This document shows, in pieces, positions 4,340-59,006 of a DNA stretch of 64,000 nucleotides; position 1 is the stretch's first letter; the number at the start of each line of letters is the position of its first letter. The position numbers and the translations under genes are program-made. The notes under the pieces are model-generated. The model made no database searches and was not told the DNA's origin. It was given only the letters and a program-made list of their open reading frames with translations. Origin of the DNA: Acidobacteriota bacterium (lineage in GTDB: Bacteria > Acidobacteriota > Blastocatellia > Pyrinomonadales > Pyrinomonadaceae); the NCBI GenBank assembly GCA_018269005.1, contig JAFDVK010000012.1, positions 434,001-498,000 on the forward strand. Reading direction: 5' to 3'.

Positions 4340-5484
4340 TGATTCTGCAAAACCGATTCGGGCGATCTCACGCCTTGCAGTTTGATCTGTGCCAACGACG
4401 CGCGGATCTCTTTCAGTTCGTCGGCAGTGAATTTAACATCAACCGCACCGAGATTTTCTTTCAGATGATATAGGTTGGTCGTTCCCGGAATCGGGACGAT
4501 AAACGGCTTTTGTGCTAACAACCAGCCGAGCGAAAATTGAACGGGCGTAACATCTTTTCGCAACGCCCACTCGCGGACCAGTGCGATCAGAGGCAAATTC
4601 GCTTTGAAGGCTTCGGGCGTAAAATACGAAACGCTTGCACGACGGTCATCCTGTGCAAAGCGGCTGAACTCGTTAAAACGGTCAGCGAGAAACGCTCTCG
4701 CCGTCGGTCCCCACGGAACGAAGCCGATGCCGAGTTCTTCGCAGACCGGGATCACGCCGTTTTCCAACACTCGTTCCAGCAAAGAATACTCCGACTGCAC
4801 CGCCGTTACCTTTTGAACGGCGTGAGCCTTGCGAATCGTTTCGGGACTCATTTCCGAAAGCCCGAAATGTTTGATCTTTCCGGCTTGGATCAATTCCTTG
4901 ACCGTTCCCGCCACGTCTTCGACGGGAACATTTGGGTCGGCTCGATGCTGGTAATAAAGGTCTATCGCTTCGACTCTGAGCCGTTTGAGTGAACCTTCGA
5001 CGGCTCGTCTGATATTTTCGGGACGGCTGTTTCTGCCGGTTGTTCTGCCGTTTTCAAAATTGAATCCGAACTTGGATGCGATGACGACCTTTCCCTTGAA
5101 AGGTTCGAGAGCTTCGCCGACAACTTCCTCGCTGGTGAAAGGCCCATAGACTTCCGCCGTATCGAAAAATGTTACGCCGCGTTCAACCGCCGTGCGAATC
5201 TGCCGAATCATCTCCGATTTAGGTGGAGCAGGATTATAAAAACCCGCGACCATACTCATACAACCCAACCCGATCGGCGAAACTTCCAGCGAGCCAAGTT
5301 TACGAAAATCTTTGTTCGCCGCATTTATTGGTTTAGAACTTTTTGTTTGAGCGTCCGCCTGATTTTGCATCGTTCCCAAAATCACCGAACTCGCCGCGAT
5401 GCCCGCACCCGCAAGCATCGTCTTGCCGATAAAATTACGGCGGCTTACGCTATCTTTTGATTTGATCTCTTCACTATTTTTCAC
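4336..5484 (-). CDS. Tat-exported aldo/keto reductase (copy 1)
   Basis: An aldo/keto reductase of 382 residues from a GTG start. The frame is open to an ATG at 5517, but GGAGGG at 5497-5492 sits 7 nt before the GTG at 5484, and the resulting N-terminus aligns with the paralogues. The Tat motif SRRNFIGK is near residue 14, followed by an Ala/Gly h-region and an A-D-A cleavage site before Gln. The catalytic Asp and Tyr are in FFDTAEVYGPF, Lys in ASKFGFN and His in YYQHRADP. IPIPGTTNLYHLKENL is the NADP-binding end. It should act in the periplasm, pre-loaded with cofactor. It is 100 bp downstream of copy 2 and coupled to the hydrolase-NTF2 gene. Confidence 0.88.
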   Translation of the reverse strand: MKNSEEIKSKDSVSRRNFIGKTMLAGAGIAASSVILGTMQNQADAQTKSSKPINAANKDFRKLGSLEVSPIGLGCMSMVAGFYNPAPPKSEMIRQIRTAVERGVTFFDTAEVYGPFTSEEVVGEALEPFKGKVVIASKFGFNFENGRTTGRNSRPENIRRAVEGSLKRLRVEAIDLYYQHRADPNVPVEDVAGTVKELIQAGKIKHFGLSEMSPETIRKAHAVQKVTAVQSEYSLLERVLENGVIPVCEELGIGFVPWGPTARAFLADRFNEFSRFAQDDRRASVSYFTPEAFKANLPLIALVREWALRKDVTPVQFSLGWLLAQKPFIVPIPGTTNLYHLKENLGAVDVKFTADELKEIRASLAQIKLQGVRSPESVLQNQ

Positions 5485-9062: not shown

Positions 9063-10058
9063 ATCGGAATGAAAAAAGTATTGGTGCTAAGCGTCATGTT
9101 GACGGCGATGATCTCTTGTCAGTCGGGAAACACATCGAATAACAGCACGAACAAGAACACTGCTACGGTGCAACGGGCGGTTTGGGACGATTCGTATGGC
9201 GGTGCCGACAAAGCGTATGACACAGAGCTGCTAAAGATGAGGGAAGCGATCGCTCCTAAATTTCAGACGTTTGAATTCAAGGATGCCGTCACCGGTCGGA
9301 CGATGACATACAACTTGTTTATTCCGAAGGATTATGACAAGAACAAAAGTTATCCTTTAGTTCACTTTATTGCGGATGCAAGTACGGTTGGGAAAGGCGC
9401 CGCTGCGCCGCTAAAGCAAGGATATGGCGGCATCATTTGGGCAACCGATGAAAGCCAGGCGGAAAACCCGAGTTTTGTTTTGGTCCCGTCTTTTGCCGGA
9501 CCGGACTGGGCGGTGAACGATAAATGGGAAACAAGCGAAGAAGTGGATATCGCCTATCGTTTGCTAAACGATGTCGTCGCAAGATACAGCATCGACAAAA
9601 ACAGGCTTTACACCACGGGCCAATCAATGGGCGGTATGATCTCGTTCCATTTCAATGCAACGCACCCAGACCTGTTTGCCGCCTCGGTCTTTGTCGGGAG
9701 CCAATGGGATATCAGTAAATTACAGCCGTTGGCCAACGCAACATTCTTCTACATCGTTTCGGCCGGAGACGAAAAAGCGTCAAGCGGAATGCAGCAGGTC
9801 GGGAGTATGCTCACCGAAAAAGGCATAAAATACGGCTCGACCGAGTTCTCCGCCAAACTGCCGCAGGCCGAACAGGAACAAAAGGTCGAGGATCTGATAA
9901 AGCAGGGACACAAGATCAACTTTGTGCAGTTTACAAAAGGAACCGTCGTCCCCGAAGGCTCCACGCAACAAGGCGCCCCCGAACATATGTATTCATTCGA
10001 CTATGCCTACAAACTGAAAACCGTGCGTGACTGGCTGTTTGAGCAAAAGAAAAACTGA
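9060..10058 (+). CDS. Lipoprotein alpha/beta-hydrolase (prolyl-oligopeptidase/feruloyl-esterase-like)
   Basis: A 332-residue exported hydrolase. A lipoprotein signal ends in AMISC with Cys20 acylated, followed by an Asn/Ser/Thr-rich tether. The alpha/beta-hydrolase core begins near residue 70. Ser189 sits in the nucleophile elbow GQSMGG, and a His in the C-terminal EHMYSFDYAY region probably completes the triad. The best family match by motif is the PHB-depolymerase/feruloyl-esterase-like group (NLFIPKDYDKNKSYPLV), so an ester substrate is likely but not identified. The start follows AGGAAAGGAG. The gene sits between the two copies of a 150-bp direct repeat, as if inserted or duplicated there. 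Confidence 0.82.
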   Translation: MIGMKKVLVLSVMLTAMISCQSGNTSNNSTNKNTATVQRAVWDDSYGGADKAYDTELLKMREAIAPKFQTFEFKDAVTGRTMTYNLFIPKDYDKNKSYPLVHFIADASTVGKGAAAPLKQGYGGIIWATDESQAENPSFVLVPSFAGPDWAVNDKWETSEEVDIAYRLLNDVVARYSIDKNRLYTTGQSMGGMISFHFNATHPDLFAASVFVGSQWDISKLQPLANATFFYIVSAGDEKASSGMQQVGSMLTEKGIKYGSTEFSAKLPQAEQEQKVEDLIKQGHKINFVQFTKGTVVPEGSTQQGAPEHMYSFDYAYKLKTVRDWLFEQKKN

Positions 10059-10098
10059 TCTAAATAAGCAGCTATGAGCAGCGGGGTTTATCTCCAGA

Positions 10099-10251
10099 CT
10101 GCGAAGCAATCTTTGAAGCAGAAGCGACCGAGTTTGGCAGCTTCGACAATGTCTGAGGCGTTATGCGCCGGCACCGACAAGTGCTTGATCGTTGCAGGGT
10201 CTCATTGGAAAGCTTTATGCTCAATGTAGAGAAGTAGTAAAGGAATAAATG
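10099..10251 (+). repeat. Direct repeat B: araC 3' remnant plus leader
   Basis: Second copy of the segment at 8918-9062. It still carries the last six codons and stop of the AraC gene although no araC precedes it here, then a similar leader, a GGAA ribosome-like site and ATG. It marks a duplicated araC-leader junction whose araC body is gone. Confidence 0.75.
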
Positions 10252-10317
10252 AAAAGAACAATTTTAAAAGCCTTTCAAGGAATTCCCGCAATAAAAGATA
10301 GCGAAATAACGTTGTAA
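10249..10317 (+). other. 22-codon remnant ORF after repeat B
   Basis: ATG followed by 21 sense codons and TAA, beginning MKRTILKAF. It uses the start codon supplied by direct repeat B, at the place where repeat A starts the esterase. It has no recognisable product and is best read as the stub of a gene lost from this position. The remaining ~170 bp to 10486 holds no other gene. Confidence 0.35.
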
Positions 10318-10450
10318 GAACCTTCCCGCTCATTCTCTTCAATATACCATTACATGGCGGCCTTCATTCTTCATCCGTGACGGGCCGAGGCCAGACTGCA
10401 AGATCGCCACCGAAGACATCCAATTCCGTGTTGACGGACCGCGGAACGTG

Positions 10451-10478
10451 ATTGCACGTGCTGTGCGCATCATATAAG
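10451..10478 (+). promoter_or_regulatory. Possible promoter and palindrome before the CocE hydrolase
   Basis: TTGCAC at 10452 and TATAAG at 10473-10478 are spaced 15 bp apart, a short spacer. Between them GCACGTGC (10454-10461) is a perfect palindrome inside a longer imperfect inverted repeat ending ATCA. The start codon follows only 8 bp after the -10-like box. Confidence 0.3.
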
Positions 10479-10486
10479 CTAGCGCC

Positions 10487-12412
10487 ATGAAAAAGTCCTT
10501 CGCTCGCTGCTTCCCTTTGATCCTTGCTGTCTTTTCGCTCTGCATTGCACCACTTTTTGCCCAAACTCCAACGCGTGTAACGCCGATGACACCCGACGTC
10601 GTTACAAAGTACGATCAGATCTTTCCGTCGGCGGACTATGTTCGGCGCGAGGTCATGATACCAATGCGGGACGGTGTCAAACTCTTTACGGTCGTGATGA
10701 TGAAGAAGGGTGTGACCAAAGCGCCGATTCTGCTTTCGCGCACGCCTTACAATGCCAGCGCTTCGACGGGCCGCGTGAATAGCCAGCGGCTTGTTGATGT
10801 CCTAGAGGTAATGGATGCCGAGTTCGTCAATGATGGATACATCCGCGTGTATCAGGACATTCGCGGTATGTACAGATCCGAGGGCGAATGGATACTCAAC
10901 CGACCGGTCGGCGGTCCGCTGAACAAGACCGGCATCGACGAATCGACCGATGCCTACGATACGATAGATTGGCTCGTCAAGAACACTCCCGAGGCAAATG
11001 GCAACGTCGGAGTGATCGGTTCGAGCTACTTAGGCTTTACCGCATTGATGACATTGATCGATCCGCACCCGGCCTTGAAAGCGGTGATCGCTCAAAGTCC
11101 GATGGTCGATGGCTGGAAGGGCGACGATTGGTTTCATAACGGTGCTTTTCGCGTGAGTTCGCTCGGCTATCCCCTTAGCCTGGGATTCAATAAGGGTAAT
11201 GGCGGCGGCGAACTGCCGCTCGGCGGCGGCGACGACTATACGCGTTATCTTGAAGCGGGTTCAATGGCGGACTTTGTGAAATCGGTCGGTGCCGAGCACG
11301 TTCCGGGCATTCGAAAGTTCCTCGAAAATCCGGCCTACACGGATTTCTGGTCGTTACAAGCCGTCGATAAATGGCTTGCGGACCGGCCGCATACTGTGCC
11401 GACAATGCTGGTCGTAGGGCAGTGGGATCAGGAAGACAGTTACGGTGCCCCAGCGGTATATCGGGCGCTGGAGCCGAAGGACAAGAACAACGATCGCGTG
11501 TCGTTCGTAATAGGCCCTTGGCGCCACTCCGGTTTTAACCACACGGGCTATGATCTCGGTTCGCTTATTTTCACTGGCGACACGGCTCTCGAATGGCGCG
11601 TTAAGTACGCCAAACCTTTCTTCGATCACTGGCTAAATGGCGGTCCTGACCCGAAAACACCTCCGGTGCTTACGTATGCGACCGGTGTAAACCATTGGGA
11701 GGTGTCAGATCGCTGGCCCCGAGGGACTGCGAAACCGATCTATCTGGCCGGGGACGGTAAAGCAACCTTCGAGAAACCGAACGCGTCCGGTAGCGAGGAA
11801 TACGTCAGTGACCCGGCGAAACCCGTCCCATTCATTCCGCGTCCGGTCGACATGGGCGACCCCTTACAGTGGAAGCCGTGGCTCGTGCACGATCAGCGCT
11901 TCGTAACGGGGCGTCCCGACGTTGTGGTCTGGACGAGTGCTTCGCTCGAGAAGAGTGTGCACATTATGGGAGCACCCGAGGTTCAGCTGTTTGCCTCAAC
12001 GAGCGGTACGGACAGCGACTGGGTAGTCAAACTTATCGACGTCTATCCGAATGATGTGCCGGAACCGGCTTCGCAGGGCGGTAAACCGTCAATGGCTGGC
12101 TTCGAACTGCCGATCGGTATCGAGATCTTTCGCGGCCGCTATCTGAAGAGTTTTGCACAGCCGACCGCTCTCACGCCGGGCAAGATCGAACATTATTCGT
12201 GGGCGTTGCCTAACGTTGACCACGTTTTTCTTCCCGGGCATAAGATCATGGTGCAGGTGCAATCGACGTTGTTCCCGTTGTACGACCTAAATCCACAGAC
12301 CTATGTTGATAACATTATGTACGCAAAGAAAGGCGATTATAAAAAGGCAACGCAGGCGATCTGGTTCGGCGGCGCGAACGCCAGCTCCGTCGTGCTGCCC
12401 GTCGTTCAATAA
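10487..12412 (+). CDS. Exported CocE/NonD-type (S15) hydrolase
   Basis: A 641-residue secreted hydrolase with signal peptide 1-26 (cleavage after LFA). Its catalytic set is Ser180 in GSSYLG, Asp314 in GQWDQED and His347 in GPWRHSG, as in the cocaine-esterase/X-Pro dipeptidyl-peptidase family. The C-terminal third is the family's jelly-roll domain (WTSASLEKSVHIMG, LPGHKIMVQVQS). It probably cleaves acyl esters or dipeptides outside the cytoplasm; the substrate is not evident. It is a distant homologue of the hydrolase half of the gene at 1946 but lacks the NTF2 domain. It is followed after 6 bp by an RsmG-like gene, possibly by chance. Confidence 0.88.
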   Translation: MKKSFARCFPLILAVFSLCIAPLFAQTPTRVTPMTPDVVTKYDQIFPSADYVRREVMIPMRDGVKLFTVVMMKKGVTKAPILLSRTPYNASASTGRVNSQRLVDVLEVMDAEFVNDGYIRVYQDIRGMYRSEGEWILNRPVGGPLNKTGIDESTDAYDTIDWLVKNTPEANGNVGVIGSSYLGFTALMTLIDPHPALKAVIAQSPMVDGWKGDDWFHNGAFRVSSLGYPLSLGFNKGNGGGELPLGGGDDYTRYLEAGSMADFVKSVGAEHVPGIRKFLENPAYTDFWSLQAVDKWLADRPHTVPTMLVVGQWDQEDSYGAPAVYRALEPKDKNNDRVSFVIGPWRHSGFNHTGYDLGSLIFTGDTALEWRVKYAKPFFDHWLNGGPDPKTPPVLTYATGVNHWEVSDRWPRGTAKPIYLAGDGKATFEKPNASGSEEYVSDPAKPVPFIPRPVDMGDPLQWKPWLVHDQRFVTGRPDVVVWTSASLEKSVHIMGAPEVQLFASTSGTDSDWVVKLIDVYPNDVPEPASQGGKPSMAGFELPIGIEIFRGRYLKSFAQPTALTPGKIEHYSWALPNVDHVFLPGHKIMVQVQSTLFPLYDLNPQTYVDNIMYAKKGDYKKATQAIWFGGANASSVVLPVVQ

Positions 12413-47647: not shown

Positions 47648-48601
47648 TCAAAGCAGATCCAGCATATTTTGAACACCTGCATGGCGGAAATAGTCGGTTG
47701 CCAGCCCAACATCTTTATAGATTTGAGCCTTTAACTCGTCTATTCCGCTAAACTTACGCTCATCGCGGATGCGGTGCAGGAACCTGACGCGTAGGGCGGT
47801 GCCGTAGAGATCGCCATCGAAGTCGAGCACAAAGGTTTCGACGGACGACTCATTCTCGCCCCCGAAAGTCGGACGCACGCCGATATTCGTAACGCTTCGG
47901 CGCCAAACACCGTCGATGAGCGTCGCGGTCGCATAAACACCATATTTCGGGGTGACGCGGTTGTGAGCCTGAAGGTTTGCGGTCGGGAAGCCGATCGTAT
48001 GGCCGCGTCGATCTCCGCGGACGACAACGCCTTCGACGCCGTAAGGCCGACCGAGCATTCGGCGGGCGATGTTGACTCGGCCGGCGAGCAATTCTTCGCG
48101 TATGCGTGATGAGCTTATACGCTGTCCGCGAAGTTTCACTTCGGCGACCTCGTCCGCATAAAAGCCAAGCTCTTCGGACAGCTTCTTAAGGAGCTCAATG
48201 TTCCCGCTGCGGCCTTTGCCGAACGCAAAACCTTGCCCGAGGTAGATCTCCTTTGCGCGAAGTCGGTCATGGATCGTGTCCCGAATGAACTCTTCTGCGG
48301 ACTGTGAGGCGAAATCACGCGAAAAGTTGATGACGATCGCCTGCTCGATGCCGAGGAATTCGAGGTACGAGAGCCGCTGATCGAGAGTCTGCAGAAGCGG
48401 CGGCGCCGACTCCGGATGCAGAACCGCACGCGGATGCGGATCGAACGTGATCGCCGTCGGAACAGCACCGATGTGTTTCGCACGATCGACAACGGTGCGT
48501 ACGATCTGCTGATGCCCGAGATGAAGCCCGTCAAAGACACCAAGCGTCAAAACGCAAGGCGTGGCGATATTCGCATTCTCAGTGCCGTGAAATATCTTCA
48601 T
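47648..48601 (-). CDS. ribF: Bifunctional riboflavin kinase/FAD synthetase
   Basis: A 317-residue RibF from ATG 48601 (MKIFHGTEN; the frame is open to 48685). The FAD-synthetase half has LGVFDGLHLGHQ (nucleotidyl-transferase HxGH) and SSSRIREELLAG. The kinase half has GVVVRGDRRGHTIGFPTANL, SVTNIGVRPTFGG and SVETFVLDFDGDLYG. It makes FMN and FAD, and so supplies the cofactors of the flavodoxin and flavin reductases in the window. Length and motif order are normal. Confidence 0.95.
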   Translation of the reverse strand: MKIFHGTENANIATPCVLTLGVFDGLHLGHQQIVRTVVDRAKHIGAVPTAITFDPHPRAVLHPESAPPLLQTLDQRLSYLEFLGIEQAIVINFSRDFASQSAEEFIRDTIHDRLRAKEIYLGQGFAFGKGRSGNIELLKKLSEELGFYADEVAEVKLRGQRISSSRIREELLAGRVNIARRMLGRPYGVEGVVVRGDRRGHTIGFPTANLQAHNRVTPKYGVYATATLIDGVWRRSVTNIGVRPTFGGENESSVETFVLDFDGDLYGTALRVRFLHRIRDERKFSGIDELKAQIYKDVGLATDYFRHAGVQNMLDLL

Positions 48602-48780
48602 CTTATGACGATCTTTATAGCAATGCTGCTTCAGGAAATCTCTGCGGTTCCCACTTCCCGCGCATCCTGCGGAACAGGAAGGCACCCTGTGTTCGATGAC
48701 TCAAAGTGTCGCCGCGGTGGCACCGACCTTACGTGATCCCGCAATTCCTTGCTTTCTGATAGTTTTCTCGAAAGTTGTTC

Positions 48781-48786
48781 TATAAT
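48781..48786 (+). promoter_or_regulatory. Consensus -10 box (TATAAT) upstream of the globin cassette
   Basis: A perfect TATAAT, with only a weak TGATAG at -35 distance (18-bp spacer). It would give a leader of about 155 nt before the globin ATG. A gene-cassette promoter of its own would be notable, because most cassettes lack one. Confidence 0.35.
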
Positions 48787-48875
48787 CCAATATACAGTTC
48801 AGGGCTTATTCCTGATAGTACAGCCGATATCAACATTATCAAGCGACGATCGCGATAATTGTCGTTTTTGAGGAT

Positions 48876-48896
48876 TATGCCGAACCATTCGGCATA
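48876..48896. repeat. TATGCCGAA-CCA-TTCGGCATA hairpin before the globin gene
   Basis: A perfect 9-bp stem with a 3-base loop, 54 bp before the globin ATG. It could be an RNA hairpin in the leader or an operator. It is not part of the attC. Confidence 0.5.
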
Positions 48897-48949
48897 GTCA
48901 TTAGTGGGTCGCACACATCATGTCGTCCCGTTTCGACCAGGAGCAAGCC

Positions 48950-49402
48950 ATGTCAGATTCGACTTTGTACGATGCAATGGGGGGTGGAGAAGGCATCCTT
49001 CGTCTTGCTCACGCTTGGCATCAGCGAGTCATGGAAGATGAAATCGTAGCTCACGCATTCAGCCATGGCTACCATCCGCAGCATACCGAGCGCTTGGCTG
49101 CGTATTGGGGAGAGGCATGGGGCGGACCAACAGCCTATAGCCAACGATATGGCAGCGAGTCTTCGGTAGTTCGAATGCACAGCGGCAATGGGCCACACGA
49201 GGAGATGGACAGCCGTGCTATCGAGTGTTTCGACCGCGCTCTCGACGATGTGGGAGTTACCGATCCTGTACTTCGCGGAGCGCTCCACGGATACTTCGCT
49301 TGGGCCACGACAAATTCAATGGCTTCTTATCCGGAAAGCGCGGACGATGTTCCAAGTAATCTACCCATACCTCACTGGTCTTGGAAAGGCCTGCAACGGT
49401 GA
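48950..49402 (+). CDS. Truncated hemoglobin (group 2-like), apparent integron gene cassette
   Basis: A 150-residue globin. ATG 48950 is chosen because AGGAG lies 6 nt before it; the ATG at 48920 has no such site. The 2-on-2 globin pattern shows in LYDAMGGGEGILRLAHAWHQRVMED, the F-helix and heme region (MHSGNGPHEEMDSRAIECF) and GVTDPVLRGALHGYFAWATTNSM. It probably binds O2 or NO. It is a solitary gene with an attC site starting 28 bp after the stop, the layout of an integron cassette. Flanking genes belong to unrelated core functions. Confidence 0.85.
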   Translation: MSDSTLYDAMGGGEGILRLAHAWHQRVMEDEIVAHAFSHGYHPQHTERLAAYWGEAWGGPTAYSQRYGSESSVVRMHSGNGPHEEMDSRAIECFDRALDDVGVTDPVLRGALHGYFAWATTNSMASYPESADDVPSNLPIPHWSWKGLQR

Positions 49403-49429
49403 GCGCTGTGAGCATGTGCAAGTGCGGCT

Positions 49430-49491
49430 CCCTAACAATTCATTCAAGCCGACCTTGTCTCCACTAAGCAAGTCGGCTTAACTCAGGCGTT
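49430..49491 (+). other. Integron attC recombination site (single)
   Basis: R''-L'' reads CCCTAACAATTCATTCAAGC then CGAC, and L'-R' reads GTCGGCTTAACTCAGGCGTT. The L boxes AAGCCGAC (49446-49453) and GTCGGCTT (49472-49479) pair perfectly over 8 bp. The outer AAC (49434-49436) and GTT (49489-49491) pair as required, with extrahelical bases between, and CTTG/CAAG closes a small terminal stem. This matches the familiar attC consensus closely. The R' reads GTTCCTA rather than GTTRRRY, so the junction downstream is not standard. Confidence 0.88.
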
Positions 49492-49536
49492 CCTAAATCG
49501 AAACTAAGTTTGGTTCACGTGAGACGATTGCGTCGG

Positions 49537-50538
49537 TCAATCGCCAAGGTGTCGGCGTGGTAGAAGATAATTCTGAACGTAGTCGGCGACGGCAGTATCA
49601 AGCGGAGTAGTTTCTGCATCGTATCCCGCTGTACGTAATCGCGTGAGATCGGCCTGCGTGTGGTATTGGTATCGGTCGCGAAGGTGTTCGGGCATGTCGA
49701 TGAACTCAACATTTCGCGGCCGGTCGAGTGCTTTGAAGATTGCGTCGGCCAAACTGTTCCAGGTATTCATTCGGCCTGATCCGATGTTGAAAAGTCCACC
49801 GGTGTTGTCAGAACCCGAAGCGGTAGCGAGGGGTTCCATAAAATGCAATGTCATCTCGACCGCGTCCTTCACATAGACGAAATCGCGGCCGAATTCACCG
49901 TCTTTGTATTGCGGATCAGCGCTCTTGAACAATTGAAGCTTGCCCGTTTCGTTAATCTGATCGAACGCCTTATTCACAAGCGAGCGCATATCGCCCTTGT
50001 GGTTCTCGTTCGGGCCGAAAACGTTGAAATATTTCAACCCGACGATCGAGTCGAACATCCCGTTGCGCGCGGCGTACTGATCGAAAAGATGCTTTGAATA
50101 ACCGTAAACATTTAGCGGACGCAGTTTGTCGAGACCGTCGATGCCATCCGCCATTCCGTTCGAACCGTCACCGTAGGTCGCCGCCGACGATGCGTAGATA
50201 AAACGAATGTCGTTCGACAAAGCAAAGTCCGCCAAGTCCTTTGTGTATTGGAAGTTATTGCGGAGCATATAGTCCGCATCGCGTTCGGTCGTCGAGGAAC
50301 ACGCCCCGAGATGGAAGATCGCTTCCGTATCCTTAAAGTCACCGATGTCGTCGATGAAGTCATCTGCGTCGATGTAATCCGCGAACTTCAACGGCGCAAG
50401 ATTCTTCCATTTGTCGGTCTCGTCCATCCGATCGACGATCAAGATGTCGTCGCGGCCCATCTCATTCAGCCGCCAAACGACCGCACTCCCGATAAACCCC
50501 GCCCCACCGGTAACAATGATCTTTTCACTAGTCGCCAT
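49537..50538 (-). CDS. hldD: ADP-glyceromanno-heptose 6-epimerase
   Basis: A 333-residue SDR epimerase from ATG 50538 (MATSEKIIVTGGAGFIG). The NAD loop is TGGAGFIGS, the SDR residues are in YASSAATYGDG and YGYSKHLFD (YxxxK), and the family hallmark AIFHLGACSSTTERDADY identifies HldD/RfaD. It converts ADP-D-glycero- to ADP-L-glycero-D-manno-heptose for LPS core, supporting a diderm envelope. No other LPS gene is next to it; the cassette lies directly downstream. Confidence 0.93.
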   Translation of the reverse strand: MATSEKIIVTGGAGFIGSAVVWRLNEMGRDDILIVDRMDETDKWKNLAPLKFADYIDADDFIDDIGDFKDTEAIFHLGACSSTTERDADYMLRNNFQYTKDLADFALSNDIRFIYASSAATYGDGSNGMADGIDGLDKLRPLNVYGYSKHLFDQYAARNGMFDSIVGLKYFNVFGPNENHKGDMRSLVNKAFDQINETGKLQLFKSADPQYKDGEFGRDFVYVKDAVEMTLHFMEPLATASGSDNTGGLFNIGSGRMNTWNSLADAIFKALDRPRNVEFIDMPEHLRDRYQYHTQADLTRLRTAGYDAETTPLDTAVADYVQNYLLPRRHLGD

Positions 50539-50581
50539 CAGGTTAATGATACAACAACCGCATGGTTGGTACATGCGGTCG

Positions 50582-51373: not shown

Positions 51374-51673
51374 CTATTCCTTTCTCAACTCATTCTCTAT
51401 CCAATTTGGGTCGCGACGGTCATCGAGGACAGCAACGACGCTTACTTCTTCGCCATCTTTATGGTAGTAGATCGAGAACGGAAACTTCGAGCAAACCATA
51501 CGGTGGTATGAGTCGTAATGCTTCTGGTGAACCCCTGCGTAAATAGTGAGAGATCGAAGATCAGACATGATCGAATTCAAAAAATAGGCGCCGAGGCCAA
51601 GCTGCTGACTTTCGTAGAATCTGATCCCATCGGCGACTGTTCGTCGTGCGGAAACAAGGATCCGAACTCTCAT
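51374..51673 (-). CDS. RelE/ParE-family toxin
   Basis: A 99-residue ParE-like protein. VRILVSARRTVADGIRFYESQQLGLGAYFLNSI is the helical hairpin and HRMVCSKFPFSIYYHKDGEEVSVVAVLDDRRDP the beta-sheet end of the family. ParE/RelE toxins block gyrase or cut mRNA on the ribosome; which applies here is not clear. The start overlaps the stop of the antitoxin gene by four bases (ATGA), the classic toxin-antitoxin coupling. Confidence 0.88.
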   Translation of the reverse strand: MRVRILVSARRTVADGIRFYESQQLGLGAYFLNSIMSDLRSLTIYAGVHQKHYDSYHRMVCSKFPFSIYYHKDGEEVSVVAVLDDRRDPNWIENELRKE

Positions 51674-51894
51674 CGCAACTCGGCACGCAACCCGTTTTCG
51701 AATTCATCGAGGCTTTCGAATGGATCGTTTCCTGCGGCTATCTCTTTTTCCCGGTCCTGAAGAAACGAAAGGTGCCAAGCGGGAGGCTCACTATTGACGT
51801 TGCGTGCACTCATACTCTTCCAGAGAGCTTCCATCAATTCGACCTGCTGTTCGCCGGTCATCTCATCAATATCAGGAATCGTTTGCACGGTCAT
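51670..51894 (-). CDS. Addiction-module antitoxin
   Basis: A 74-residue acidic protein from ATG 51894 (MTVQTIPDIDEMTGEQQVELMEALWKSM is the start of the addiction-module component family). PPAWHLSFLQDRE and the DPFESLDEFENGLRAELR tail match small antitoxins that pair with RelE/ParE toxins. The long frame up to 52101 is not supported. TATACT at 51906-51901 ends 6 nt before the ATG, so the transcript would be nearly leaderless. It heads the two-gene operon and probably represses it together with the toxin. Confidence 0.85.
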   Translation of the reverse strand: MTVQTIPDIDEMTGEQQVELMEALWKSMSARNVNSEPPAWHLSFLQDREKEIAAGNDPFESLDEFENGLRAELR

Positions 51895-53868: not shown

Positions 53869-56037
53869 ATGCACAGAGCATTTTTCTTTGCCGTCATTTT
53901 ACTTGCTGCGACATTAACGGTGTTCACGCAGGACGGCAATACATTGAAACTACACATTAAGAACAACGAAACACAGAAAGGCGTTGCCGCCGCGACCGTC
54001 TCCGTTCTCGGGACCGATCTGCAGGCGACCGCCGATCAGAACGGCAAGGCCGAGATCAAGGGAATTCCCAACGGCGAACAGGTGATCGAGATAGTTTCGC
54101 ACGGATACGAGAGGATCGAGCTAAAACTCAGTTTCCCTCTCGCGGATATGAGCGAACGGACGGTCTCAATGAAGATCACTTACGAAGCCGGCGAGGTTAC
54201 GGTCAGTTCGACTCGAACGGGCCGCGAGATCGAGGCCGAACCGACACGCGTCGAGGCGATCGACGAGGAAGAGGTCGACGAGAAGATCAACATGCGGCCC
54301 GCAAACGTATCGATGGTCCTGCACGAAAGCACAGGCATTCAGGTACAGCAAACCTCTGCAACGACGAATACGCAGAGCGTCCGGATCCAAGGCCTTGACG
54401 GCCGCTATACCCAGATCCTGAAGGACGGATTTCCGGCATACGGCGGATTTTCCGGCAGCCTCAGCGTGCTTGAGATCCCGCCGCTTGATCTCAAACAGGT
54501 CGAGGTCATCAAAGGACCGTCTGCAACGCTCTTCGGTGGAGACGCGATCGCCGGTGTCGTCAACTTCATCAGCAAAGTGCCGGAAGAAAGACCCGTAACG
54601 TCGTTGATCCTGAATCAGACGTCGGCACTTGGAACGGATTTTTCGATATTCAATTCAAGGAAGTTCGAAAAATTCGGCTACACGCTTCTTGGCTCGGTGA
54701 ATTATCAGCGTCCTTTCGATGTCGATAGGGATGACTTCACCGAACTGCCGTCGACAAAGGCGGTCAGCTTCAATCCGAAACTATTCTTTTATTTCGACAG
54801 CCGAACGACCTTGGCGATCGGAAATTCGACATCGTATCAAACACGTAAAGGCGGCGATATTTTTGTGCTGAAGGGGCAGTCCGACAGCTATCATCAATAC
54901 TTCGAACGGAACGGGTCCTTTCGCAACATTACGACAGTGAATTTCGATCACGTCTTCGGTGACGGCTCGCGTCTGAACGCAAAGCAGAGCCTTGCATTCT
55001 TCAGCCGCGATCTTACGACGCCGAACTACGCGTTCGGCGGGCGGCAATTCAACTTATTCACGGATGTGAGTTATTGGAAGGTGTTCGGCAAACACGCTTT
55101 GATCTTCGGCGGGAGCGCCGTCTATGACAGTTTTCGAGAACGTACGCCGGGGCTGTCCCGAAATGAGACGCGTTCGGCATTCGGCGCGTTCGTCCAGGAT
55201 ACTGTCGATCTTAACGAGCGAGTCTCGCTCGAGGCGGGCTTGCGTATCGAGAAGACGAAGGATTACGGGACGTTCGCGCTTCCGCGCGTGTCATTCTTGT
55301 TTCGGTTGACTGACAAACTCACTTCACGTGTCGGATTTGGAATGGGTTACAAAACGCCGACAATGTTCACTGAAGAAGCCGAACTGCTGCTTTTCCGCAA
55401 CGTGCTTCCAGTCGGTACCAACCTGAACGCCGAAAAGAGCAAAGGCGGCACGTTTGACCTGAACTATCGCGGCTCGATCAGCGAAAGGGTCTCGTATTCC
55501 GTCAACCAAATGTTCTTTTACACGGAGATCACTGACCCGATAATCCTACGGCCGAATGGCGCCGCAAGCTACGCTTTCAGCAATGCAGCGTCGCGGATCG
55601 TGAGCAAGGGTTTTGAGACGAATGCGAGATTCGAATACGGCATCGCAAAACTCTTTCTCGGCTATACCTTTACTGACGGCAAGGCAGGCTATCTGCCGGG
55701 TACACGCAAACTCACGCTCTTGCCGACGCATCGAGTGAATTCGTCGCTCGTCCTTGAGAAACACGAAAATTTTAAGGCGGGAGCCGAGCTATATTACGGC
55801 AGCCGGCAGACGCTCGATAACCGCAGCCTCACGCGAAACCTCGTCGAAGTCGGGCTCTTCGGCGAAAAGACTTTCGGCAAATTCAGCCTGTTTATCAACG
55901 CCGAGAATATCTTCGACCAACGCCAAGGCCGCTACGGCCAGGTCGTCTTTCCGCCGCACCAAAACCCGACATTTGCCGAGATCTACTCCCACACCGAAGG
56001 CCGCGTATTTAATGGAGGAATAAAGATCAGGCTGTAA
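53869..56037 (+). CDS. TonB-dependent outer-membrane receptor with N-terminal carboxypeptidase-regulatory domain
   Basis: A 722-residue receptor from ATG 53869 (GGAG 6 nt upstream; the 5' extension to 53809 is discarded). Signal peptide, then a carboxypeptidase-D regulatory-like beta domain (30-110), a plug domain with VQQTSATTNTQSVRIQGLDGRYTQ, VEVIKGPSATLFGGDAIAGVVNFI, and a 22-strand barrel ending in an aromatic-rich strand. It resembles receptors for siderophores, cobalamin or metal chelates. Its small neighbour has metal-binding Cys, which favours a metal ligand. The TonB box region is not obvious. Confidence 0.9.
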   Translation: MHRAFFFAVILLAATLTVFTQDGNTLKLHIKNNETQKGVAAATVSVLGTDLQATADQNGKAEIKGIPNGEQVIEIVSHGYERIELKLSFPLADMSERTVSMKITYEAGEVTVSSTRTGREIEAEPTRVEAIDEEEVDEKINMRPANVSMVLHESTGIQVQQTSATTNTQSVRIQGLDGRYTQILKDGFPAYGGFSGSLSVLEIPPLDLKQVEVIKGPSATLFGGDAIAGVVNFISKVPEERPVTSLILNQTSALGTDFSIFNSRKFEKFGYTLLGSVNYQRPFDVDRDDFTELPSTKAVSFNPKLFFYFDSRTTLAIGNSTSYQTRKGGDIFVLKGQSDSYHQYFERNGSFRNITTVNFDHVFGDGSRLNAKQSLAFFSRDLTTPNYAFGGRQFNLFTDVSYWKVFGKHALIFGGSAVYDSFRERTPGLSRNETRSAFGAFVQDTVDLNERVSLEAGLRIEKTKDYGTFALPRVSFLFRLTDKLTSRVGFGMGYKTPTMFTEEAELLLFRNVLPVGTNLNAEKSKGGTFDLNYRGSISERVSYSVNQMFFYTEITDPIILRPNGAASYAFSNAASRIVSKGFETNARFEYGIAKLFLGYTFTDGKAGYLPGTRKLTLLPTHRVNSSLVLEKHENFKAGAELYYGSRQTLDNRSLTRNLVEVGLFGEKTFGKFSLFINAENIFDQRQGRYGQVVFPPHQNPTFAEIYSHTEGRVFNGGIKIRL

Positions 56038-56321: not shown

Positions 56322-57299
56322 TCACCAACCCAAGATATAAGCAAACATCAGCGGGGCGACGATGGAGGCATCGGATTCGACGATGTATTTGGGTGTGTCG
56401 GCGGCGAGTTTGCCCCAGGTGATCTTTTCATTGGGGACTGCGCCGGAGTATGAGCCATAGGACGTCGTCGAATCCGAGACCTGGCAAAAGTAGCCCCAAA
56501 CCGGCACGTTCTCACGCTGAAGGTCCTGATGCAGCATCGGGACGACGCATATCGGAAAATCGCCCGCGATGCCGCCGCCAATTTGATAAAAACCGATCGT
56601 AGAATCGTCCTTTGCGTTGTCGGTGTACCAATCGGCAAGGAACGTCATATATTCGATACCGGTGCGCACGGTGTGGACGTTTTTGATGTCGCCCGTTATG
56701 ACGTGGCCCGCAAACATATTGCCCATCGTCGAATCTTCCCAGCCCGGCACGACCATCGGCAAATTCTTTTCCATCGCCGCGTACATCCAACTGTCTTTCA
56801 GGTCGATCTGATAAAACTCTTCGAGCGAGCCATTGCTCAAGACCTGATACATAAACTCGTGCGGGAAGTATCGCTCGCCTTTCGCGTCGGCCTGCGTCCA
56901 GACATCGACCATCGCCTTTTCAAGCCGCCGCATTGCTTCCATCTCGGGGATGCACGTATCGGTCACGCGATTCATATGGCGGTCGAGCAGGGTTTGTTCG
57001 TCCTGCGGCGTCAGGTCGCGATAATGCGGCACGCGTTCGTAAAAATCGTGTGCGACGAGGTTGAAAAGGTCTTCCTCCAGATTCGCACCCGTGCACGAAA
57101 TGATCTGCACCTTGTCCTGCCGTATCATCTCTGCAAGGCTTAGGCCTAATTCCGCCGTGCTCATTGCCCCCGCAAGCGTGATCATCATCTTTCCGCCGCC
57201 CGCGAGATGCTTGGTATAACCCTCAGCCGCGTCAATCAACGCCGCCGAATTAAAATGCCGATAGTGATGCTTGAGGAACTCCGTTATATGTTTGCTCAT
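56322..57299 (-). CDS. Deoxyhypusine-synthase family protein
   Basis: A 325-residue DHS-like protein from ATG 57299. Family segments are GGGKMMITLAGAMSTAELG, CTGANLEEDLFNLVAHDFYERVP, PGWEDSTMGNMF, and DSTTSYGSYSGAVPNEKITWGK with the Lys expected to form the imine with the butylamine moiety. In eukaryotes and archaea DHS modifies eIF5A; most bacteria lack that protein, and homologues have been linked to homospermidine or related polyamine synthesis. Here a polyamine product is the better guess. A decayed second copy of its 5' end lies at 58750. Confidence 0.88.
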   Translation of the reverse strand: MSKHITEFLKHHYRHFNSAALIDAAEGYTKHLAGGGKMMITLAGAMSTAELGLSLAEMIRQDKVQIISCTGANLEEDLFNLVAHDFYERVPHYRDLTPQDEQTLLDRHMNRVTDTCIPEMEAMRRLEKAMVDVWTQADAKGERYFPHEFMYQVLSNGSLEEFYQIDLKDSWMYAAMEKNLPMVVPGWEDSTMGNMFAGHVITGDIKNVHTVRTGIEYMTFLADWYTDNAKDDSTIGFYQIGGGIAGDFPICVVPMLHQDLQRENVPVWGYFCQVSDSTTSYGSYSGAVPNEKITWGKLAADTPKYIVESDASIVAPLMFAYILGW

Positions 57300-57380: not shown

Positions 57381-58082
57381 TTAGCTCGTTCTCTTAGAAA
57401 TCGATCGGTCTGCAGGCCAGACGGCGTATCTTGCTAGAAAGGTTTCGACTCCGTCTCGAGCGCAGGCAACAATCTCTTTCTTAGGTGGGACCGTGCCAGT
57501 AAGGATCGCCCGATCAAGGTGCTCCCCTGCGATGAGATAGGCGAATTGTGCAGCTGCTCGTTTCGGCTGGCTGATACGCAGCAGTTCTATTCTCGCAAGC
57601 CGCTCAAACCCCTTGGAAAGAGCCGCTATCACTTGGCCTGGTGCGGCATCAAAATACTCGCTTGCCATAGCAGGAAACGTCCGTATCTCCCCGATCAAAA
57701 GGCGTCTAATCGCCACGACCTCGATCCGAATAATGCTTAACGCAAGCTCGTCGGCAAGGTCGTAGAAGGTCCGCTCAAGCAGATCGCAGGAAGTCACGAC
57801 GCTGAACCTATCTTCCAGCCCACGAGCGAAGTTGCCCGCGAATTTCATAATGTCATGGACAGCGTGCTTAAAGATCGTTTCCTTGTCCGGATAATTGTTA
57901 TATAGAGTTCGCTTTGTAAGCCCGGCGGCGGCTGCGATTTCATCCATGGTCGTTCCCGCATAACCTTGATCAAGGAAAAGGCTTCGGGCTGCGTCGAGCG
58001 TAGCCTCTCTCGAACGTACAACGCGCGGATCACGATCACGACGCGTTTCATCAGGAAATCCTTTAGAAGATATTGCACTCAT
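57381..58082 (-). CDS. TetR-family repressor
   Basis: A 233-residue regulator from ATG 58082 (MSAISSKGF). The HTH (about 30-75) reads ATLDAARSLFLDQGYAGTTMDEIAAAAGLTKRTLYNNYPDKETIF, with the C-terminal ligand and dimer part following (TetR_C type, LIGEIRTFPAMASEYF). It is divergent from DUF998 with only 28 bp between starts, so it very likely represses both that gene and itself. The ligand is unknown. Confidence 0.9.
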   Translation of the reverse strand: MSAISSKGFPDETRRDRDPRVVRSREATLDAARSLFLDQGYAGTTMDEIAAAAGLTKRTLYNNYPDKETIFKHAVHDIMKFAGNFARGLEDRFSVVTSCDLLERTFYDLADELALSIIRIEVVAIRRLLIGEIRTFPAMASEYFDAAPGQVIAALSKGFERLARIELLRISQPKRAAAQFAYLIAGEHLDRAILTGTVPPKKEIVACARDGVETFLARYAVWPADRSISKRTS

Positions 58083-58110
58083 TAGTATAATAATATAGCA
58101 TTGTGGGACT
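58083..58110. promoter_or_regulatory. 28-bp shared promoter of tetR and DUF998
   Basis: The strip ATTAGTATAATAATATAGC holds TATAAT-type boxes on both strands (TATAAT rightward; TATTAT and TATACT leftward). With so little room, both transcripts must begin close to or at their start codons and the -35 boxes lie inside the opposite genes. Confidence 0.5.
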
Positions 58111-58755
58111 ATGAACAAATTCGCTGCCGTAACCCGCTCCTTGTTAGGCTGGGGAATCGTCGTTGGGCCATTCTATTTGATATTGGGAGTTGCCCAAGGC
58201 TTGCTTCGTGACGGATTCGATTTCTCTCGACACGCATTGAGCCACCTTGCCAATGGACCATGGGGGTTAGTTCAGACAGTGAATTTTATACTTTCCGGGT
58301 TAATGGTGATCGCGGCCGCGATCGGCATCGCTCGCGTCGTCGGTAAGAAATGCGTAATGGCCTGGTTCCTTGTCGTCTTCGGAGCGGGAATGCTCTTAGC
58401 CGCATTTTTTCCAGCTGATCCCGTTGATGGCTTTCCGCCCGGGACTCCCGTCGGGACGCCAACGTCGATCAGCACGACGGGACTACTACATTTTGCCGTC
58501 GCCGGAATCGGGTTCATCGCTCTTATGGTGAGCTGCTTCGTCTCGTCCGTTACGTTCAAACGTCTGGGAGAGCGGTACCTTTCATGGCTGTCACTTGGTG
58601 CCGGGACCGTCATTGTTCTCGGTTTCTTCGGAGGGCCGGCACTTGGCGGGTCGGGTATTGTCGGGATCTGGGTGGCCGTGGTTACGGGCTGGATCTGGCT
58701 GGGCGTTGTATCCTGGCGCACGTACCAAATATCGCCGGATCCGAATTGCGAATGA
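58111..58755 (+). CDS. DUF998-family membrane protein
   Basis: A 214-residue protein with about six transmembrane helices (for example GIVVGPFYLILGVAQGLL, FILSGLMVIAAAIGIARVV, MAWFLVVFGAGMLLAAFFP). RHALSHLANGPWGLVQ and FPADPVDGFPPGTP are typical DUF998 motifs. Its function is unknown. It shares a 28-bp promoter strip with tetR, so it is probably inducible by the TetR ligand. Its stop codon abuts the deoxyhypusine-synthase pseudogene, suggesting that tetR and DUF998 came in with, or landed between, the duplicated copies. Confidence 0.88.
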   Translation: MNKFAAVTRSLLGWGIVVGPFYLILGVAQGLLRDGFDFSRHALSHLANGPWGLVQTVNFILSGLMVIAAAIGIARVVGKKCVMAWFLVVFGAGMLLAAFFPADPVDGFPPGTPVGTPTSISTTGLLHFAVAGIGFIALMVSCFVSSVTFKRLGERYLSWLSLGAGTVIVLGFFGGPALGGSGIVGIWVAVVTGWIWLGVVSWRTYQISPDPNCE

Positions 58756-58948
58756 TTTGATCATATCCTGACTCATCATCTACGCATGACTTAAGCCAAG
58801 CTCCGCCGTGCTCATTGCCCCTGCAAGCGTGATCATCAACTTCCCGCCGCAGTGAGATGCTTGGTATAACCCTCAGCCGCGTCTATCAACGCCGCCGAAT
58901 TTAAATGCCGATAGTGGTGCTTGATGAATTCTGTGATCTGTCCGTTCA
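58750..58948 (-). pseudogene. Decayed 5' fragment of a second deoxyhypusine-synthase-like gene
   Basis: Reading leftward from 58948 it gives ITEFIKHHYRHLNSAALIDA and onward, like the intact gene, with GYTKHL conserved. A one-base loss then causes a frameshift to TGA at the GGGK segment. Homology continues weakly in another frame (GCAATGAGCACGGCGGAG is preserved) to about 58750, where the DUF998 stop begins. DNA identity over the first 120 bp is high, so the duplication is not ancient. Confidence 0.85.
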
Positions 58949-59006
58949 TTACTGACAATAATAATGTCTTGCTGAAAAAATGCGAAGGGGTTAAAGTTAC
59001 CAACTA

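Follow-up and report, generated by a model that had tools for sequence, protein, structure and literature searches.

Integron cassettes have reportedly been inserted at attG sites, that is, genomic sites of the G|TT type, in the work of Loot et al. 2024. More generally, stray cassettes are already known as a kind: by the published definition, a single attC site lacking an integron-integrase is a SALIN (PMC12690207), and the single-attC CALIN has likewise been described (PMC9024848). Such cassettes are of wider importance in that integrons have been proposed to seed chromosomes with genes by this route. Where the types of attC site are concerned, 99.4% of Xanthomonadales-like sites are found in Xanthomonadales, the taxonomic and environmental groupings of this class not being distinguishable from each other (PMC8352920).

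The locus described here, in an Acidobacteriota genome of the family Pyrinomonadaceae, is clearly a further example of a stray cassette. Within the window, by which is meant the whole stretch of 64,000 nucleotides that was analysed, a single globin gene is followed by an attC site, both in the same orientation, as in an integron gene cassette and as a preliminary description of the sequence had proposed (Table 1). This attC is the sole match of the covariance model described below in the 3.55-Mb genome (99.35% complete), and no second attC was found near the cassette, either in the window with filters off or in the whole genome; a candidate at 55020 (E 0.04) was rejected, as it lies inside a TonB-receptor ORF. 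Moreover, the genome-wide intI search called for in the preliminary description gave no protein over the integron-integrase family cut-off, with a small chance of one remaining at this completeness. The weak integrase matches which do occur are of the same kind as those in 14 control genomes, and a search of the 64-kb window with the genus's own integrases returned no intI fragments. The earlier statements that the 64 kb hold no second attC or integrase, and that this might be a single attC without an integrase, are both confirmed, the latter for the whole genome. With no integrase over the cut-off anywhere and only one attC, the globin cassette is by definition a SALIN; it shares with that class one attC, one gene and a genome without integrase, and shows no difference in kind, its host lineage and globin cargo being unusual as far as our searches show.

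Table 1. Features of the globin cassette and its surroundings (window coordinates).
Feature	Position	Strand	Remarks
ribF, left neighbour	47648..48602	-	Pfam FAD_syn and Flavokinase
Left flank	48606..48900		No significant match in genus; TATAAT at 48781-48786; 12-bp inverted repeat at 48873-48899
Best left-edge candidate, A|TTAGTGGGTC (unproven)	48900..48901	+	Top R'' partner among 351 positions
Truncated-haemoglobin-family gene	48953..49402	+	149 aa, intact; ORF, Pfam Bac_globin, start backed by homologues
attC site	49430..49495	+	Covariance model match at 49434-49491
attC R'' box	49430-49436		CCCTAAC
attC L'' box	49446-49453		AAGCCGA(C); separated from R'' by spacer
attC L' box	49472-49479		(G)TCGGCTT; preceded by short variable part
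attC R' box	49489-49495		GTT (49489-49491) alone retained; preceded by spacer
Right junction, G|TT	49489..49490	+	Cassette ends at 49489, chromosome from 49490
hldD (ADP-glyceromanno-heptose 6-epimerase), right neighbour	49537..50541	-	TIGR02197 over cut-off
Deoxyhypusine-synthase-like gene (name presumed)	56325..57299	-	Usual neighbour of genus integron; 6.8 kb from attC

The attC site is real. Indeed, all of the elements previously noted from the sequence, namely the R''/L'' and L'/R' boxes, the 8-bp stem and the AAC/GTT pair, are present at 49430-49491. The stem allows two readings, one of 8 bp (AAGCCGAC/GTCGGCTT) and one of 7 bp with a bulged C plus CTTG/CAAG, the second placing an extrahelical base where other attC sites have one. 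A covariance model was made for this analysis from 33 attC sites, mostly from Lysobacterales arrays with two from one sister species, the window site being left out. It gives the window attC 49.6 bits (E 8.7e-11 in 64 kb, a rough value since the model is not IntegronFinder's own), as against 16.7 bits for the runner-up with filters off, within the TonB-receptor ORF; the training loci were seeded with the window's own left arm, which introduces some circularity into that part of the score. The covariance check advised in the preliminary description has thus been made, and the below-threshold outcome that it allowed for did not occur. The right arm, which had no part in the seeding, agrees with the Lysobacterales consensus at 17/18 positions and the left arm at 23/23. 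Exact copies of the 22-base left arm, often in tandem groups of several, occur in at least 119 stretches of other genomes, for the most part Lysobacterales. These matches are difficult to reconcile with the hairpin being a terminator or a chance palindrome, a reading which would suit its place just 3' of the stop codon; a terminator scan called none there, and the score and the two-arm match together already refute it, leaving it a negligible probability. As advised earlier, the bottom strand was folded: as ssDNA it is predicted to fold at -11 kcal/mol (z -3.3; top strand -10.2), but without pairing of the outer AAC/GTT.

The ends of the site are informative as to the edges of the cassette. 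Positions 5-56 of the covariance model align to the window attC, as against 1-60 for other attC sites of the genus among the matches listed. Because the outer R''/R' pairs are missing, the right junction is with ordinary chromosome; their loss is what would be expected of a cassette that borders on chromosome. On the left, the best candidate for the edge falls 52 bases 5' of the start codon, ca 0.12 such matches being expected by chance. It reads A|TTAGTGGG, with an A before the TT where a G is expected, the 5' edge of a cassette being TTRRRY after G. If one cassette was inserted, the empty allele would join ...GTC(A/G) to TTCCTAAATCG. Were the candidate edge correct, the upstream TATAAT would be outside the cassette, and a promoter scan paired no -35 with it; the earlier claim that the globin cassette has its own consensus -10 is therefore not upheld. 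The left flank in which this TATAAT lies was also considered as a remnant of something known, and this was rejected in view of the lack of any significant match in the genus.

The globin locus is not fixed chromosome across the genus, contrary to the finding which the preliminary description had held would count against a cassette. Any such globin is found in only three of the 41 genus genomes, being absent from the other 38, and it stands between ribF and hldD in this genome alone (1/41). The conserved parts of these two genes are separated by ca 8 to 137 bp in G017, G013, G021 and G022, as against 963 bp here, while other members of the genus carry different genes in the interval, almost all of them oriented like the operon. 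Comparison with relatives, as had been proposed, therefore did yield globin-free loci, but not the exact edges of the insertion: G017 and G013, with flanking genes ca 87% and 83% identical to those of this genome, have intergenic DNA too diverged for the exact empty site to be recovered. The suggestion of a cassette at a secondary site is nevertheless well supported by the chromosomal right junction, by the absence of the globin there in relatives and by the lack of any attC or intI in each ribF-hldD interval that was examined in relatives.

Several other features of this neighbourhood may be recorded. At 49806-49836, hldD contains in frame a GC-rich repeat, CCCGAAGCGGTAGCGAGGG, which encodes EPLATASGSD; ca 30-bp matches to it (91-97%) are scattered across many genus genomes and the peptide is missing from G022 and G016, such that the repeat has the appearance of a REP-like insertion within the coding frame. 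Further along, at 51374-51894 on the minus strand, is a probable toxin-antitoxin pair, made up of a 99-aa protein that is RelE-like by eye and a 74-aa protein of the Pfam family Unstab_antitox. It adjoins a 258-aa protein that belongs to no known family, in a stretch common to G013, and no attC lies near it. Finally, the deoxyhypusine-synthase-like gene is separated from a partial copy of itself (58691-58949, a truncated second start, 84% identical) by two genes, for a TetR-type regulator and for a small membrane protein; this insertion (57381-58949) is missing from G017.

Integrons occur in the genus and are frequently in decay. A full-length integrase over the cut-off is present in 4/41 genomes, with broken or partial ones in two more, and 16/41 have matches to the attC model with E values of at most 0.05, of which the weakest may have arisen by chance. 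Taken together, the genus forms a natural series. In G052 the integron is intact, with intI directly adjoining a deoxyhypusine-synthase-like gene and followed by attC cassettes; in G045 all that is left of intI is an N-terminal stub, with this gene on one side and two attC sites on the other; in G021, G022 and G002 intI is gone and the gene is followed by cassettes; and the present genome has one stray cassette and no integron. The integrase has gone from this genome and persists in some sister species only. The window has its own orthologue of the neighbouring gene, which is presumed to be deoxyhypusine-synthase-like, and neither attC nor intI lies beside it.

Given the frequency of decayed integrons in the genus and the unexplained left flank, it could be argued that the cassette is the last remnant of an integron at ribF-hldD which lost intI, attI and all of its other cassettes. 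This is unlikely, however, since the genus integron adjoins another gene, and the ribF-hldD intervals examined in relatives, which are short or occupied by other genes, are free of attC and intI. A related proposal is that the cassette once stood in the integron by the deoxyhypusine-synthase-like gene and was moved the 6.8 kb by ordinary rearrangement, not by an integrase. The distance is indeed short and the truncated second gene start at 58691-58949 is a sign of rearrangement there, but the right break coincides exactly with the point of the attC at which recombination takes place (G|TT), and the genes from hldD to the deoxyhypusine-synthase-like gene are collinear with those of relatives, all of which makes such a transfer quite improbable.

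The best explanation, and one which we consider probable, is instead that a single cassette of globin gene and attC was integrated at ribF-hldD, outside attI, by an integrase since lost. In such an event IntI would have bound the folded bottom strand of the attC, and the cassette would have been joined to an attG-like genomic site of the G|TT type. The integrase would probably have come from the chromosomal integron that the genus itself carries next to the deoxyhypusine-synthase-like gene, an integron lost later in this lineage. The globin would stay as an ordinary chromosomal gene in the orientation opposite to its neighbours, and, as no integrase can excise the cassette, it would be fixed in place. 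Insertion is supported by the different states of intI (intact, broken or lost) next to one and the same gene and by the resemblance of the window attC, in its arms and inner segment, to genus sites; against it are the A, not G, of the left-edge candidate, the intergenic divergence which hides the empty site and the lack of a cassette copy of the globin elsewhere. The features in common with the attG insertions of Loot et al. 2024 are a cassette outside attI, a G|TT right junction and a gene followed by its attC, the differences being that the present case is natural and theirs experimental, and that the left edge here is a candidate only.

The resemblance between the window attC and known attC types extends beyond the genus. 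Its arms are identical to the Lysobacterales consensus at 40/41 positions, as they are at 38/41 in G022 and G024, 37/41 in G002 and 36/41 in G021. This is the likeness to the Xanthomonadales-like clade (PMC8352920), the assignment being by arm identity, not by the clade's own model, and it differs from the clade in its distant host and in a terminal part that is longer and different. In this regard, no 16S gene was found in the assembly and RpoA was therefore chosen for comparison of the host; it is 37-38% identical to Lysobacterales and 50-52% identical to Myxococcota and Desulfuromonas. Gene content, for its part, suggests Acidobacteriota. In its inner segment, TTGTCTCCACTAAGC, the window attC is similar to the long sites of G024 and G002, and from its sequence the site appears as if it were a genus attC after the loss of part of its terminal structure. 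Arm matches of 36-40/41 in a host far from Lysobacterales bear on the question of taxon versus environment (PMC8352920). It is possible, if rather less than an even prospect, that we have here a natural attG-like insertion by the host lineage's own, later lost, integron, with a supposedly Xanthomonadales-restricted attC class being native to a distant lineage. If so, the Xanthomonadales-like class would represent a pool of exchange or habitat and not a taxonomic marker.

Other integron remains in the genus are as follows. A second place for integrons is known from G047 (C10), where G006 keeps a single attC; this SALIN (G006 C3) was rejected as a clean ectopic insertion because the same genes flank intI in G047, and it looks like a decayed integron. 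A further contig of G047 (C33; L226, 3941-4253) holds an intI relic, in which the first ca 100 codons are joined to the last ca 17 by internal deletion, adjoining a single attC, while the same genome has a full intI elsewhere. In G022, the two cassettes that adjoin the deoxyhypusine-synthase-like gene and have no intI (L222, reverse complement 9990-11468) are by eye NAD(P)H-oxidoreductase-like and nucleotidyltransferase-like, the second with a degenerate attC.

As for the cargo, the globin gene has a ribosome-binding-like AGGAG directly 5' of its start codon, and it is presumably expressed and functional. Its product matches Pfam Bac_globin (PF01152, E 1.3e-13), has no NCBIfam match at E 0.01 and can be aligned over most of its length with the truncated haemoglobin of Thermobifida fusca (PDB 4uzv). 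It has this family match in common with truncated haemoglobins, and differs in that its close homologues have an invariant H-S-G-N-G-x-H-E-E-M-D stretch. His76 is invariant in five close homologues and falls one residue off the known proximal His in the 4uzv alignment. A structure predicted from the single sequence was of poor quality (mean pLDDT 54.5); the best PDB matches of this model are truncated haemoglobins, none at E 0.001 or better. A literature search for a globin cassette gave nothing relevant, a viral search gave no relative and a plasmid search gave relatives at 25-34% identity only. No other cassette copies of the globin from which to map the left edge were found. Homologues at 65-72% identity are present in G053, a member of the genus, in a second genus of the family (two genomes, G130 and G118) and in Pseudoxanthomonas sangjuensis; these were rejected as cassettes, there being no attC near any of them. 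Two of these homologues are parts of longer reading frames: that of G053 (L182, 4750-5652, minus) is in one frame with a C-terminal domain that is SnoaL-like by eye, and that of Pseudoxanthomonas sangjuensis (L244, reverse complement 4369-5271) is in one frame with an N-terminal TsaE-like domain.
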